A stretch of DNA of 64,000 bases from Candidatus Roizmanbacteria bacterium GW2011_GWC1_37_12 (GTDB lineage Bacteria; Patescibacteriota; Microgenomatia; UBA1406; GWC2-37-13): NCBI GenBank assembly GCA_000991135.1, contig LBST01000003.1, positions 1-64,000 on the forward strand, in the 5' to 3' direction. This document shows positions 2,384 through 8,080 of this stretch, in pieces (position 1 is the first letter of the stretch; every line of letters starts with the position of its first letter). The translations under genes were made by a program, and so were the position numbers. The notes beneath the pieces are model-generated. The model searched no databases and was not told where the DNA came from. It saw only the letters and a list, made by a program, of their open reading frames with translations.

Positions 2384-2635
2384 TTAGAGACTCATCAGTC
2401 TACCCGCGAGTCTGCCTACTTGAGCTAAAAAGAATGTTGTATTAGGAAATTTCTTTTCTGCCTTATTCATAGCCTCAATTGGTGTTTTTCCAACAAAATA
2501 TTTCCCCGTTTTCACTTCAATTGTGACATAATAGCTTGGGTCGTATTTTTTTTCTATTAATGGCTTGATTCGATAATAAATCTTCTCTCCGCGATCTGCA
2601 ATTTGTTTCCCTTTTTTATCTATAGTGATTGACAT
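2384..2635 (-). CDS. small protein paired with aspartyl protease
   Basis: An 83-residue protein with an N-terminal charged helix and a C-terminal half (YYVTIEVKTGKYFVGKTPIE, then EKKFPNTTFFLAQVGRLAG). This resembles the small DUF5678-like or unnamed partners found upstream of single-domain aspartyl proteases in many genomes. The protease gene starts one base after this stop, so the two form a tight pair. Its ATG overlaps the -35 box of the opposite-strand promoter at 2629, so the two promoters probably compete. Function unknown. Confidence 0.65.
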   Translation of the reverse strand: MSITIDKKGKQIADRGEKIYYRIKPLIEKKYDPSYYVTIEVKTGKYFVGKTPIEAMNKAEKKFPNTTFFLAQVGRLAGRLMSL

Positions 2636-2656
2636 ATGGAATAATTGTAGTATAAT
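2629..2656 (+). promoter_or_regulatory. consensus sigma70-type promoter
   Basis: A perfect TTGACA (2629-2634) and a perfect TATAAT (2651-2656) are separated by 16 bases. Transcription would start near 2663, exactly at the first hairpin of the predicted RNA. The -35 box overlaps the first codon of the minus-strand gene ending at 2635. Confidence 0.85.
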
Positions 2657-2662
2657 GATTCC

Positions 2663-2801
2663 AAGTTTGCAATAAACTTATGAAAATACTATTCATTTCC
2701 AATTCGTCTTCAAGGAGACTCTTTGGGGAGGGTAGTATTTTTATGGCCTAAAGAGTAAAAAAAATTACCAATCCCCCGCCCGAAAAAAGGGCGGTTTTTT
2801 T
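2663..2801 (+). ncRNA. predicted structured small RNA or 5' leader with intrinsic terminator
   Basis: Downstream of a consensus promoter, about 139 bases fold into consecutive helices. P1 is AAGTTT/AAACTT (2663-2668 with 2674-2679). P2 is a 12-bp helix (2680-2691 with 2733-2744, one G-U). Inside P2 lie CCAA/TTGG (2699-2702 with 2723-2726) and GTCT/AGAC (2706-2709 with 2716-2719), separated by a symmetric internal loop. A GC-rich terminator closes the RNA. A 23-codon ORF (2680-2751) overlaps P2 but its ATG is part of the helix, so I treat it as secondary. It could be a free sRNA or a riboswitch-like leader of the operon at 2828. No known family was recognised. Confidence 0.6.
2776..2801 (+). 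terminator. intrinsic terminator
   Basis: CCGCCC, loop GAAAAAA, GGGCGG, then seven T residues. This is a textbook rho-independent terminator, 26 bases before the first gene of the following operon, so it must be read through, or another promoter used, for the operon to be expressed. Confidence 0.9.
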
Positions 2802-2827
2802 ATGGTTATAAATTTAAAAAAATAAAT

Positions 2828-3172
2828 ATGGAACCAGGAGTTCATAAGAAAGGAAACGTATTATTAATTCACGTTCACGCAGATCAAAAGAATTTATCAC
2901 CTCAAGCGTTGCTTGGTGAAGGATATTCTTTTACACCTGAACCGTTAGGCGTATGGGCAATAGTAGCTTGTAATTTATTGACTACGATTTCCCCTCCAAA
3001 GAACTGGGGTAAAAAAATCGTTACTTGGTATCGCAAAATTCATGTTAAATATTACAAAAGCAGTTCTCAACATGAAATTGTTGATCCTCAAGCTCACGTT
3101 CAAGCTGCAGATATTTCATTCAAATTTGATAAATCCGTCGAAACTAGTTATGAACCTGGTGGAGGACGTTAA
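2828..3172 (+). CDS. hypothetical protein, first gene of unknown operon
   Basis: The 114-residue product is not recognised. It has a histidine-rich start (VHKKGNVLLIHVHADQ), a hydrophobic stretch (PLGVWAIVACNLLTTI, about residues 39-54), a basic middle (KKIVTWYRKIHVKYYK) and a Gly-rich end. No Shine-Dalgarno sequence is visible. It follows the terminator of the predicted leader RNA and precedes a small lipoprotein gene by 17 bases, so it probably opens a four-gene operon. Confidence 0.6.
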   Translation: MEPGVHKKGNVLLIHVHADQKNLSPQALLGEGYSFTPEPLGVWAIVACNLLTTISPPKNWGKKIVTWYRKIHVKYYKSSSQHEIVDPQAHVQAADISFKFDKSVETSYEPGGGR

Positions 3173-3348: not shown

Positions 3349-5343
3349 ATGGATCGACAAAAACCAGAAATATCTAATTTTAACTTTAGCTTAAAACATG
3401 CGCTTTTAATTGGCGCTTATACTGGTATCGATCAATCACAAATAACTACGTTATTACCACAACAAAAACAAAAAATATATCTAGGTCTAGTTAAGCAGTT
3501 AGAATTAGTATCGTTTTTACATCAACCGAAACCTGACCAACCGCTACCAAAGGACGTTTTGAAAACGACTATAACTCATTTTACTAACACAAACCAGTTA
3601 TCTATAGATCAACTAATTGCTCAAGTAAATTCTATATTATTATTTGGAGAAGTTAGAGATATAAATGGCACCCCTGCTGAATCTTTACATAATGAGCTTA
3701 GTCACTTTTGGAGAATTCTAGGCTGGGAAGAACTCTCGGAGATAACAGAAAAATCAAAACATATACCAGGAACGCTTGATGATATTGAAGCTAATTGTGG
3801 TAATTTAATACGAACGATGACATTACTAAAAGAGTATTGGGAAGAATCAAAAATTGGACCAAAACTGGTTAATCCTGAAAAAAATATAAAAACGTCGATT
3901 GAGTCTACCGATGGATATGCTTTTGTAAGACAATTAAATTATCCTTATGCCTCGGCGATTGTTACCGGTCGGGACAAAGGTTATCCGAAGGCTAATGGAA
4001 AACAGGATTATAAAGAAAAAGCCCAATTATTAGAACAACTTTTATCTAAGTTTCCTGCCGAGTTTGCCTTTTTAGTTTTTGAATACTATGCCTTTACCAA
4101 AGGCTGGTCTACAGAAAATTACAATATAGCTGTTGCACAAGAATATATTGATCAACACGGAAATAGAAAAATAAAAGGTTACACAGTCGGTAGATTTGCC
4201 TTTTTGTTAACCCAAGACGCTGGGACTTCAATTATTTCTAACTCAGATAATCACGTTCCTGTTGGGTCTCCTGACAAAACAAGTGTTACTTCCTTTGACA
4301 TTGACGCTGAAGCAGGAAATGTTTTGTCAATTGTTCATGGAGAAACAGCTCGTTTTATTACAAGATTTCCAGATGTCTGTAATGTGCTCACAGGAAACAA
4401 AAACCAGTTAATTAACCTAACCAGTGCTTTAACAGTTGCTCACGAAAAAAAACCAATTGTTACTATTATTTTAGGAAAAGCAACAAAAAAGCAGGTTGTT
4501 GAAATAAATGAAGACGGAATTGACCAATCTCTTAGTAAAGTGGTGAAATTTTTGAGAACAAATAAAATAAACGTGGTTAGTTTAGAGGCTGGTCACATTC
4601 ATGCCGACCGAAAACCGACTAATTTACAAAAATTAGGTATAACAATTGGGGCAAAATTATACTCTCAACTTGAGCAAATGGGAATCAATGTCAAGAAACA
4701 ACCGATAATCGATGAAGACCATGTGATAAATAGTTTGGATTATGTAAGTTATCTAAATCTTATGTATTCTTTGGGGTACGACGCCGAAGAATTAATCTTT
4801 GAATCGTCACCTGTTATCCGAGAAATTGCTGTTGCTACAATAGTAACACTTTTATCTCAACAGCCCGAAAGCTTTTCTATGAATGGAAACGCATTAATAT
4901 TTAATGTTCCTGATACCGAGCTCCAAGTCGAGTTTATAAAAGATATAACCGAACCCGTGATTGAATTGGGTTGTGTTATTTTTGACGTTGGATTGAGTTT
5001 ATATAAAGCTTTTCCAGAACTTGAATATTTATATAGTAATGTTCCAGGTAAAAATATTCACCAAGAAATGTTAAAAATATATAATGAAAAGGTTTCTTCT
5101 GCTGAACGATCAAAGAGTTCAAAAGAAAAATTCCCTGTCAAAACTAAAACCTATAGCGAACTTGAAAGTCACGAAGGATTACCCCAATTACCAAGCAAAA
5201 ATATTGCTGTTTGTAATGTATTGGAAGGATTTTATGCGCCTCAGCAGGAAAAATTAAAAGCCGTACTCACTTCTCTTGGAATAGATTTAAATATAATTGG
5301 CATATCGATCACTGATCAAGGACTAAAAGTTAGTTTAAATTAA
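3349..5343 (+). CDS. large protein of unknown function (664 aa)
   Basis: I do not recognise this protein. It has no signal peptide or membrane helix and appears cytosolic. Residues 1-200 look helical. A central alpha/beta region contains NVLSIVHGETARFITRF and a strand-rich stretch (KKPIVTIILGKATKKQVVEI, then INVVSLEAGHIHADRKPTNL) with several His and Asp residues that could bind metal or phosphate. After a Ser/Lys-rich linker (SSAERSKSSKEK, about residue 585) comes a short C-terminal unit (NIAVCNVLEGFYAP). It starts 3 bases after the lipoprotein stop and ends 1 base before the PLP-enzyme gene, so it is co-translated with them. Confidence 0.75.
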   Translation: MDRQKPEISNFNFSLKHALLIGAYTGIDQSQITTLLPQQKQKIYLGLVKQLELVSFLHQPKPDQPLPKDVLKTTITHFTNTNQLSIDQLIAQVNSILLFGEVRDINGTPAESLHNELSHFWRILGWEELSEITEKSKHIPGTLDDIEANCGNLIRTMTLLKEYWEESKIGPKLVNPEKNIKTSIESTDGYAFVRQLNYPYASAIVTGRDKGYPKANGKQDYKEKAQLLEQLLSKFPAEFAFLVFEYYAFTKGWSTENYNIAVAQEYIDQHGNRKIKGYTVGRFAFLLTQDAGTSIISNSDNHVPVGSPDKTSVTSFDIDAEAGNVLSIVHGETARFITRFPDVCNVLTGNKNQLINLTSALTVAHEKKPIVTIILGKATKKQVVEINEDGIDQSLSKVVKFLRTNKINVVSLEAGHIHADRKPTNLQKLGITIGAKLYSQLEQMGINVKKQPIIDEDHVINSLDYVSYLNLMYSLGYDAEELIFESSPVIREIAVATIVTLLSQQPESFSMNGNALIFNVPDTELQVEFIKDITEPVIELGCVIFDVGLSLYKAFPELEYLYSNVPGKNIHQEMLKIYNEKVSSAERSKSSKEKFPVKTKTYSELESHEGLPQLPSKNIAVCNVLEGFYAPQQEKLKAVLTSLGIDLNIIGISITDQGLKVSLN

Positions 5344-5344
5344 T

Positions 5345-6325
5345 ATGACTAAACAAAAATTAATCTGCATTAAATGTGGAAGAACTAATCCTAAAAAAAG
5401 TTTAAATTGTATATCTTGCAAAGGATTTTATTCTTTGTTAACAGTTGAATACTCTTCAAATAAATTACTTAACATTAAAGAACTCTATAACAATTATTTG
5501 CCCTATCATCTTTTTAAAGATAACGATTTCAAAAACTGTTCTTTAACTAAATTTAATAAAAATATATGGCTAAAAAATGAGGGAGAAAACGAAAGTAAAT
5601 CTATTAAGGAAAAAGATATTTTTGTTGGTTTGAAAGTCGCTTCTTATCTAGGCTATAAAAAAACATTATGCGTTTCAGGTGGAAGTGGAAAAAATGTTGT
5701 TAATTTTTTTCAAAAACAAGCTAACTTTCCACTAATAAAACTTTATTCTCCAAAAGGAGAAGACTACGAAAAAACTTTTAAACTTGCTTTGTATAACAAA
5801 AATAAAAACGTTTGGAATATTACTCCGGGTATAAACCCTTACTCTCAAGAAGGATCTAAAACTATAGCTTGGCAGATTATAGACTCAAAAATTGATTTTG
5901 AAACCATCCTTATTCCTTGTGGTAACGGATCTTCTCTTTGGGGAATATATAAAGGATTTTTAGAAGCTAAAGAACAAGGATTTGTCAAAAAAGTGCCCAA
6001 AATATTTGGAGTTGAACTAAAAAATGGTCCTATCGGAAAAAGTCTTAGAAGCGGTAAAATGGAAAAAAACGGAAAAATACTAAATTCAAAAGCTCATTCT
6101 ATCGATGTTAAAGAGAGTTTCAGCTTACAAAAAGCCGTAATGGTAATAAAACTAACAGCCGGAGGTATAATAAATGTTAGCGAAAAAGAAATTAATAAGG
6201 CTTATAAAGTACTCCATAAAAAAAAATATCTATCTAATTTTACAGCAGCAGCAGCATTGGCGGGTGCAAATAAACTCAAAAGATTTAATAAAATCTGCTG
6301 TATTTTAACCGCCGATGAGTTTTAA
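5345..6325 (+). CDS. threonine-synthase-like PLP-dependent enzyme with zinc-ribbon N terminus
   Basis: Residues 9-26 form a two-CxxC zinc ribbon (CIKCG, CISC) as in threonine synthase and related fold-type II PLP enzymes. The presumed PLP lysine lies in ESKSIKEKD (about residue 88), where the family has SFKDR. The phosphate-binding glycine loop is PCGNGSSLWG (about 194-203). At 326 residues it is shorter than ThrC. The altered lysine motif and short length argue against ordinary threonine synthase, and no other threonine gene is nearby. Substrate unknown; it probably works with the 664-residue protein one base upstream. Confidence 0.7.
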   Translation: MTKQKLICIKCGRTNPKKSLNCISCKGFYSLLTVEYSSNKLLNIKELYNNYLPYHLFKDNDFKNCSLTKFNKNIWLKNEGENESKSIKEKDIFVGLKVASYLGYKKTLCVSGGSGKNVVNFFQKQANFPLIKLYSPKGEDYEKTFKLALYNKNKNVWNITPGINPYSQEGSKTIAWQIIDSKIDFETILIPCGNGSSLWGIYKGFLEAKEQGFVKKVPKIFGVELKNGPIGKSLRSGKMEKNGKILNSKAHSIDVKESFSLQKAVMVIKLTAGGIINVSEKEINKAYKVLHKKKYLSNFTAAAALAGANKLKRFNKICCILTADEF

Positions 6326-6361: not shown

Positions 6362-8080
6362 ATGATTAAAAATAAAATTATTCAAAATTTAAAAACGGCT
6401 CTAAAAAAATCCGGCATTAAGGATGACTCCTTGATTGATCTTCAGCCACCAACCAATGCACAATTTGGTGATTACTCCACTTCAGTGGCCCTAAAGTTAA
6501 CAAAACTTTTCAAAAAAAATCCCATGGAAATTGCAGAAGAAATTAAGAAGAATTTTCCAAAGAGTGAATTTGTCGAAAAAATTGAGATTGTCAAACCAGG
6601 ATTTATAAATTTTTGGGTAAGTAACAATAATCTTCTCGACTTTGCTCAAAAAATAAACGAAGATAAATTCGAATTTCCGTCATTTCATCTAGGAAAAAAC
6701 AAAAAAATTATGGTTGAGTTTGCTCATCCAAATACTCATAAACTTTTTCATATCGGCCATTTGAGAAACATTTCTACCGGTGAATCAATCGTAAGAATTT
6801 TTGAAGCCGTCGGAAATAAGGTCATTCGAACAAACTATCAGGGTGATATCGGTTTACATATAGCCAAATGTTTGTATGGAATCCGTAATTCGCAATCCGT
6901 AATTAAAAAATTAAATAATTTACAGGAAAGGATTGAATTTATAGGTAAGATGTATACCGAGGGAACCAAAGCTTACGACAATCCAAAAGCTAAAGAGGAA
7001 ATCAACAAAATAAATAAAATGATTTATAATCAAGACCCGGAAATTCTCCCGCTTTGGCAGGAAACCAAGAAATGGAGCTTGGATTATTTTGACGAGGTTT
7101 ACAAACGGGTTTACAGTCATTTCGACCGTTTATATTTGGAAAGCGATGTGACAAAAAGAGGTCTGGAAATTTCCAAAGAAATATATAAAAAAGGGGTTCT
7201 TGAAAAAAGCCAGGGAGCGATCGTTTTTAACGGAAAAAAATACGGACTAGATATAAGAGTCTTTATCAACTCCCTTGGATTTCCCACCTATGAGGGAAAA
7301 GAGATGGGATTAGCAGAAAAAGAATTTTATGATTTTGGAGAACTAGATAAAAATATTCACGTCGTCACTCCAGAACAAACAAGTTTTTTTAAAATCACTT
7401 TTAAAGTCGAAGAGTTAATCAACGAAAAAAAATATAAAGGTAAGCAATATCATCTTATCTATGAATGGGTAAAACTTAAGGAAGGTAAAATGTCTTCCCG
7501 CGAAGGCAATATAATCGAGGCCAACTGGCTAATCGACCAAATAAAAACTAAAATCTTAGAAAGATTTAAATGCGATGAAAAAACTGCCGAAACCCTTGCT
7601 GTTGCGTCGGCTAAATATTCATTTCTAAAAAACAGTACGCAAACCATAATTCATTTTGATATCGACGAATCGATTGCTGTCGATGGAAATTCTGCGCCTT
7701 ATATCGTTTATACTTACGTCCGCTGCCAGTCGGTCCTCCGTCGTCATTCTGGCAAGGCCGAAGGCCGCGTCCAGAATCTAAACGACGATTCTGGAGTCGC
7801 TCCGCTCCCCAGAATGACAGAAAGTGAGTCTAATCTATTACGAAAACTTTATCAGTTTCCAGAAGTTGTTTTAAAATCCGCCGAACAATATTCGCCCAAC
7901 TTCATCGCCACTTATCTTTATGAGTTAGCGTCGCAATTCAATCTTTTCTATCAAAAAAATCCAATCCTCAAAGCCGAAAAAGAAACAAAGGAATTAAGAT
8001 TATTGATCACCCAAACAACGGCGAATGTTATAAAGAAAGGGCTGGAATTGCTGGGAATAAAGACGGTAGAGCGCATGTGA
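6362..8080 (+). CDS. argS: arginyl-tRNA synthetase
   Basis: A class I aminoacyl-tRNA synthetase charging tRNA-Arg. It has the N-terminal Arg-tRNA synthetase domain (FGDYSTSVALKL), the HIGH signature in HPNTHKLFHIGHLRN (about residues 123-137), KMSSREGN near residue 376, and a DALR-type anticodon domain at the C end (ASQFNLFYQKNPIL). At 572 residues it is of normal length. Two in-frame low-complexity or palindromic insertions are visible: IRNSQSVIKKLNN near residue 180, and about 26 residues around SGKAEGRVQNLNDDSGVAPL encoded by a palindromic element. Both lie at positions where orthologues have variable loops, so the enzyme should still work. Confidence 0.95.
   Translation: MIKNKIIQNLKTALKKSGIKDDSLIDLQPPTNAQFGDYSTSVALKLTKLFKKNPMEIAEEIKKNFPKSEFVEKIEIVKPGFINFWVSNNNLLDFAQKINEDKFEFPSFHLGKNKKIMVEFAHPNTHKLFHIGHLRNISTGESIVRIFEAVGNKVIRTNYQGDIGLHIAKCLYGIRNSQSVIKKLNNLQERIEFIGKMYTEGTKAYDNPKAKEEINKINKMIYNQDPEILPLWQETKKWSLDYFDEVYKRVYSHFDRLYLESDVTKRGLEISKEIYKKGVLEKSQGAIVFNGKKYGLDIRVFINSLGFPTYEGKEMGLAEKEFYDFGELDKNIHVVTPEQTSFFKITFKVEELINEKKYKGKQYHLIYEWVKLKEGKMSSREGNIIEANWLIDQIKTKILERFKCDEKTAETLAVASAKYSFLKNSTQTIIHFDIDESIAVDGNSAPYIVYTYVRCQSVLRRHSGKAEGRVQNLNDDSGVAPLPRMTESESNLLRKLYQFPEVVLKSAEQYSPNFIATYLYELASQFNLFYQKNPILKAEKETKELRLLITQTTANVIKKGLELLGIKTVERM
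7742..7818 (+). repeat. compound palindromic element inside argS
   Basis: Four related words alternate orientation: CATTCTGG, CCAGAATC, GATTCTGG, CCAGAATG. They give two adjacent hairpins plus a long outer pairing. It is read in frame without a stop as ...SGKAEGRVQNLNDDSGVAPL... A related element lies just upstream of the epmA-like gene (11689-11747). Confidence 0.8.

Follow-up and report, generated by a model that had tools for sequence, protein, structure and literature searches.

What is the function of the structured segment that lies, at positions 2629 to 2827, between a consensus promoter and an operon that begins with genes of no recognized family? We addressed this question in a 64,000-nucleotide stretch of a Candidatus Roizmanbacteria genome (hereafter, the window) and in the homologous loci of related genomes. 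A preliminary description had placed here a promoter, an AAGTTT/AAACTT hairpin, a multi-helix fold and a terminator, and all of these are present in the sequence, none displaced by more than one base from its stated position. That description had assigned the element to no known class. An Rfam search returned no family for the window element at the gathering score or at relaxed thresholds. The best sub-threshold matches were at chance level (Phe_leader, E = 1.1 and 19 bits versus a gathering score of 55), and the T-box family (RF00230) had no match in the window. The segment folds at -52 kcal/mol, compared with -35.3 ± 4.0 kcal/mol for 200 dinucleotide shuffles (z = -4.2), none of which equalled it. 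Based on a conserved Arg-Arg leader peptide, two alternative pairings, a terminator, downstream arginine genes and matched leaders elsewhere, all of them read from sequence, we estimate a probability of roughly 90% that the element is a ribosome-mediated transcription attenuator sensing charged tRNA-Arg. Its principal features are as follows.

2629..2656, + strand: promoter, with TTGACA (2629-2634), a 16-bp spacer and TATAAT (2651-2656) in the sequence.
2663..2679, + strand: 5'UTR hairpin AAGTTT-GCAAT-AAACTT (arms 2663-2668 and 2674-2679), abutting the leader start codon.
2680..2751, + strand: leader peptide ORF of 23 codons, MKILFISNSSSRRLFGEGSIFMA followed by a stop; start, Arg-Arg and stop are kept in homologues.
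2713..2718, + strand: candidate regulatory tandem Arg codons AGG AGA; synonymous codons vary among leaders.
2683-2694 / 2730-2741, + strand: 12-bp helix, enclosing the helices 2696-2702 / 2723-2729 and 2706-2710 / 2715-2719.
2776..2801, + strand: intrinsic terminator CCGCCC-GAAAAAA-GGGCGG-T7 (arms 2776-2781 and 2789-2794, T tract 2795-2801), folded at -12.3 kcal/mol and followed by 26 bases up to the ATG at 2828.

The 23-codon ORF, which the preliminary description had treated as a side issue, emerged as the functional core of the element. In a BLAST search with positions 2600-2850, about 20 genomes of the same family yielded homologues, and an exact pattern of the conserved core matched 12 contigs (nine Candidatus Roizmanbacteria, one Patescibacteria group bacterium and two other bacteria). 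Of 72 family genomes, 40 contained a match to a covariance model of the element at E 0.01, and matches were rare outside the family; the weakest of the 40 were other leaders or ambiguous, and several weak matches were rejected by eye as leaders for other amino acids. The collected set comprised 39 Arg leaders, found in Candidatus Roizmanbacteria (Patescibacteria/CPR) and two outlying genomes. Arg-Arg was present in 38 of these 39, whereas a random 23-mer with 3.9% Arg would contain it in about 3% of cases. This count is somewhat circular, because some weak model matches had been admitted by visual inspection for Arg-Arg. The lone exception (G051) has Arg-Lys in a truncated leader and precedes an argH with an in-frame stop. 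Across the 19 loci that were found by BLAST and selected without regard to the ORF (including L011), Arg-Arg occurred in 19. Homologous leaders keep the start, the stop and the tandem Arg-Arg, while their lengths differ by whole codons, mainly between region 1 and Arg-Arg (regions are defined below), and the first Arg codon lies 12 nt 5' of region 2 in the aligned leaders. The arginines are encoded by AGG, AGA, CGA and CGT; as AGG and CGA differ at two positions, it is the identity of the amino acid, and not the DNA, that is kept.

The position of the promoter relative to the leader was also consistent among homologues, with TATAAT ending 6-11 nt upstream of the leader ATG in 27 of 39 loci (23 nt in the window copy), and from the predicted start sites these transcripts would therefore be nearly leaderless. 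The 5'UTR hairpin of the window recurs within a near-identical 5'UTR in G002 and G096 and is missing from most homologues, so it is not essential to the mechanism. As a separate observation, a GGCC at 2745-2748, just 5' of the leader stop, recurs at 2804-2807 just past the terminator; many homologues have either this repeat or a GGYY counterpart in the latter position, with a compensatory GACC/GGTC in L008. Several leaders, L007, L011, L014 and L016 among them, are followed by a second terminator-like hairpin after the first.

Two mutually incompatible pairings can be drawn across the leader, involving three regions.

2683..2702, + strand: region 1, the 5' arm of the 1:2 hairpin (AAAATACTATTC...TTTCCAA); cognate versus swapped pairing, z = -8.4.
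2725..2744, + strand: region 2 (GGGGAGGGTAGTATTTTTAT), which pairs with region 1 or region 3.
2755..2776, + strand: region 3, the putative antiterminator 3' arm (GTAAAAAAAATTACCAATCCCC); RNAduplex with region 2, -18.5 kcal/mol.

The 3' half of the peptide (GGGGAGGGTAGTATTTT) is constrained as RNA, its partner being either the 5' half of the peptide or the pre-terminator segment. Both pairings were stronger between regions of the same locus than between regions swapped among 38 loci, with mean energies of -17.0 versus -13.6 kcal/mol for 1:2 (z = -8.4) and -19.6 versus -16.3 kcal/mol for 2:3 (z = -8.1), and no permutation of 2,000 was as good in either case. Cognate pairings still won outside the genus of the window (z = -6.5 for 1:2 and -6.0 for 2:3). 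In a fixed-column alignment, the 12-bp helix of 1:2 displayed 12 double-change cells against 3.3 ± 2.4 in shuffled alignments (reached in 0 of 500), whereas covariation of 2:3 in the same kind of alignment was not above shuffles, though the pairing is conserved.

Codon by codon, the leader is under two kinds of constraint. Over 29 leaders, the second Arg codon carries 0.80 synonymous versus 0.07 non-synonymous differences per site, while the region 2 codons GGG, GGT, AGT and ATT carry 0.00-0.10 synonymous and 0.11-0.17 non-synonymous differences per site, so Arg is selected for its meaning as a codon and GEGSI as RNA. The preliminary description had set conservation of the helices against conservation of the codons as opposing outcomes; compensatory changes did appear in the 12-bp helix, but the Arg codons are conserved as codons and the 3' half of the ORF as RNA, and this mixture is the signature of an attenuator.

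These counts also bear on whether the leader might act as an arrest peptide, with the nascent chain stalling the ribosome once it has bound free arginine, or a metabolite related to it, inside the exit tunnel, as TnaC does with tryptophan and SpeFL with ornithine. SpeFL and the fungal arginine attenuator peptide (arg-2/CPA1) are likewise small peptides tied to arginine or ornithine metabolism, but they act by metabolite-induced nascent-chain arrest and not by starvation stalling at Arg codons. Conservation that extends past Arg-Arg, into GEGSI and MKIL, would suit arrest. However, synonymous sites of GEGSI are more conserved than its amino-acid sites at most codons, which points to an RNA constraint, and the residues themselves vary (GVG, GSDS, GRDS, GEE, RWGN) while the pairing stays. 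In the present layout, a stall induced by arginine would probably also regulate biosynthesis genes and argS in the wrong direction. Constraint on GEGSI as RNA argues against an arrest peptide, which we consider very unlikely.

Under the attenuator reading, transcription would begin just past 2656 and a ribosome would translate the leader. When Arg-tRNA is scarce, the ribosome would stall at AGG-AGA (2713-2718) inside the 1:2 hairpin, parting regions 1 and 2; the freed region 2 would pair with region 3 and occupy the 5' arm of the terminator at its base, and the polymerase would continue into the operon that ends in argS. When Arg-tRNA is plentiful, the ribosome would reach the UAA at 2749-2751 and cover region 2, region 3 would be free, and the terminator would form and end transcription. 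If the leader were not translated, the 1:2 hairpin and the terminator would both form. What is sensed would be the charging of tRNA-Arg and not free arginine.

We modeled these states by folding, representing a stalled ribosome by masking all sequence up to 12 nt beyond the first Arg codon. With this mask, the expected number of 2:3 pairs rose from a median of 4.4 to 15.3, and with the ribosome at the stop it was 0. Even with this mask, the terminator stem formed at equilibrium in 32 of 39 loci, since the 2:3 helix either ends next to the 5' arm or takes only its base (2-3 nt). Since a model of mutually exclusive folds failed in most loci, we asked instead how much of the terminator arm is sequestered. 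In transcripts that have yet to include the 3' arm of the terminator, a stalled ribosome leaves region 2 paired with at least 2 nt of the 5' arm in 30 of 39 loci; when the ribosome is at the stop, none are held. The energy gained by terminator formation was -8.6 kcal/mol in the stalled state versus -13.1 kcal/mol with the ribosome at the stop, and it was weaker by at least 2 kcal/mol in 32 of 39 loci. In the window copy, the antiterminator and terminator overlap by about one base, C2776 alone, which in the folded stem is the neighbour of the T tract. Antitermination in this copy would therefore have to be kinetic or depend on slippage, and this step is the weakest link of the proposed mechanism for the window copy.

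The small overlap of the window 2:3 helix with the terminator stem would also fit a genuine leader peptide that acts on first-gene translation or on Rho-dependent termination, with the hairpin and T tract not being the decision point. Nevertheless, a terminator-like hairpin with a T run follows 39 of 39 leaders, and the first gene varies by genome (argG, argH, argS, GNAT, ATP-grasp-like or orphan), which makes a start-site mechanism specific to one gene unlikely; overall, we regard this alternative as exceedingly improbable. Although a stable fold between a strong promoter and a terminator would also suit a trans-acting small RNA of about 140 nt with incidental read-through, the fixed Arg-Arg of a conserved peptide, the indels that keep the frame, the competition between two pairings and the conserved arginine-gene linkage are not expected of one, its probability is close to negligible, and of the two options left by the preliminary description, a small RNA or a transcription-controlling leader, the leader stands and a stand-alone small RNA is unneeded to explain the data.

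The genes downstream of the window element are the following.

2828..3172, + strand: first downstream gene, 114 aa, no family match.
3349..5343, + strand: 664-aa orphan protein, probably in the same operon, no Pfam or NCBIfam match.
5345..6325, + strand: PLP enzyme of the threonine-synthase type (PF00291).
6362..8080, + strand: argS, arginyl-tRNA synthetase (Pfam; NCBIfam TIGR00456, 364.6 bits).

The preliminary description had called this an unknown operon, which holds for its first genes; its last gene, however, is argS, and the genes preceded by homologous leaders include argG, argH and argS. A known connection to arginine is lacking for the initial genes, and 76 related genomes contained no relative of the 664-aa protein; the PLP enzyme is 28% identical to a gene behind the Arg leader in G063. 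This argS, the last gene of the putative operon, is the only one found in the window genome, in which neither argG nor argH was found. Overall, 35 of 36 testable in-family leader loci are followed on the same strand by argG, argH and/or argS, a tally made by reading leader tables against argG/argH/argS tables and not by script. G041 is the single testable family locus with none of these genes downstream, and the G054 locus ends at a contig end. For example, argS immediately follows the Arg leader in G097, and first genes elsewhere also include GNAT acetyltransferases and ATP-grasp-like proteins. In two relatives, G047 and G056, a T-box upstream of argH replaces the leader peptide, with scores of 68.5 and 40.9 bits, both under the curated 93, and E-values of 9e-15 and 1e-7; Rfam gathering thresholds gave no match across 20 argS/argH loci, and the two T-boxes emerged only at an E-value threshold. 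Longer argG paralogues of about 550 aa (L093-L107, L114) had no clear Arg leader upstream and were excluded from the counts. This second argG-like protein (L093-L107) occurs in many genomes, sometimes behind an AT-rich short leader and terminator with no Arg codons.

We also scanned the whole window genome for short ORFs followed by a terminator before a gene. This yielded few candidates, and those at amino-acid genes match the cognate residue, giving about ten matched leaders in this 1-Mb genome (Arg, His, Thr, Trp, Leu, Ile/Val, Ser and Phe/Tyr). Besides the Arg leader, they include the following.

G000:C10 near 36866, - strand: Thr leader (for example, MKKEIIVATTTVSC followed by a stop) before thrS.
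G000:C2 near 13329, + strand: His leader (MKIFCLSNGVHHFLPNGG followed by a stop) before hisS.
G000:C6 near 60474, + strand: Trp leader before a TrpB-like gene.
G000:C4 near 68341, 74861 and 76447, + strand: Leu leader (leuA) and two Ile/Val leaders (pyruvate kinase; aminotransferase-ilv).
G000:C5 near 64218, - strand: Ser leader before a serB-like gene.
G000:C7 near 30961, - strand: Phe/Tyr leader before a DAHP synthase gene.
G000:C6 near 70751, + strand: His-His leader before a histidine ammonia-lyase gene (hutH), a degradative enzyme for which starvation-triggered read-through would be unexpected.

When gene-leader assignments were shuffled, the observed score was reached in 1 of 100,000 permutations, a figure that is only indicative because the ten pairs were chosen by gene function after the list had been seen. 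Across the family (loci L271-L300 for Thr and L241-L270 for His), genes with an upstream terminator had a Thr-run leader in 12 of 14 cases for thrS and a His-run leader in 4 of 5 for hisS, counts that include the window's own hisS. There was no such terminator at about half of the thrS and most of the hisS genes examined, so the device is frequent but not universal. Other loci caught our attention individually: a possible Gln/Asn leader (beginning MERSYLDQQNQQQNSAQGG) before an apparent gatC/gatA (L080, G054:C16), a leader with His-Pro-Ala-Trp-Tyr-His before an Asp/Glu racemase-like gene (L069, G032:C97) and, outside the family, a His-containing leader near hisS (L056, G337).

Leader-peptide attenuators have been reported in Proteobacteria, Actinobacteria and some Firmicutes (PMC1262725, PMC2965389). 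The window element resembles the trp, his, leu, thr, phe and ilv attenuators (PMC1262725; Rfam Phe_leader) in its short ORF, tandem codons, 1:2 and 2:3 pairings, terminator and cognate genes. Unlike them, it would sense arginine, occurs in Patescibacteria and has no Rfam match; the start codon also lies mostly at or near the predicted transcription start, and the antiterminator reaches no further into the terminator stem than its base. Another parallel is uORFC-8-2, the Rhodobacterales cysS leader, also a predicted ribosome-mediated attenuator with tandem cognate codons at an aminoacyl-tRNA synthetase gene, which differs in sensing cysteine, in being alphaproteobacterial and in its restriction to cysS (PMC8632094). 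The His leader of hisS/hisZ in bacilli likewise extends attenuation beyond Proteobacteria and Actinobacteria, acts at a tRNA synthetase gene and exchanges with T-boxes among relatives, but concerns histidine and Firmicutes (PMC2965389); the words arginine, arginyl, argG and argS are absent from the main text of that paper. The T-box riboswitch (RF00230), found before argH in the two relatives above, also senses charging of the cognate tRNA, but does so by binding tRNA directly, and the window element does not match it. Our literature search returned no arginine leader-peptide attenuator and none in candidate phyla, which is weak evidence given that subscription journals were mostly uncovered. 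Such putative switches are widespread in these little-known tiny bacteria, and to our knowledge none had previously been described for arginine.

Together, these results suggest that in Roizmanbacteria, and possibly in CPR more widely, leader-peptide attenuators, many of them on nearly leaderless transcripts, are probably a general means of controlling amino-acid genes, with leaders recurring at thrS and hisS and T-boxes substituting at some loci. Arginine is apparently added to the amino acids sensed by leader-peptide attenuators, and the mechanism is placed in the candidate phyla radiation. The proposed attenuator would give a concrete rule for spotting regulation in the genomes of uncultured bacteria, would tie orphan genes (those for the 114-aa protein, the 664-aa protein and the PLP enzyme) to arginine supply, and would be a natural example of starvation sensing on almost leaderless transcripts.
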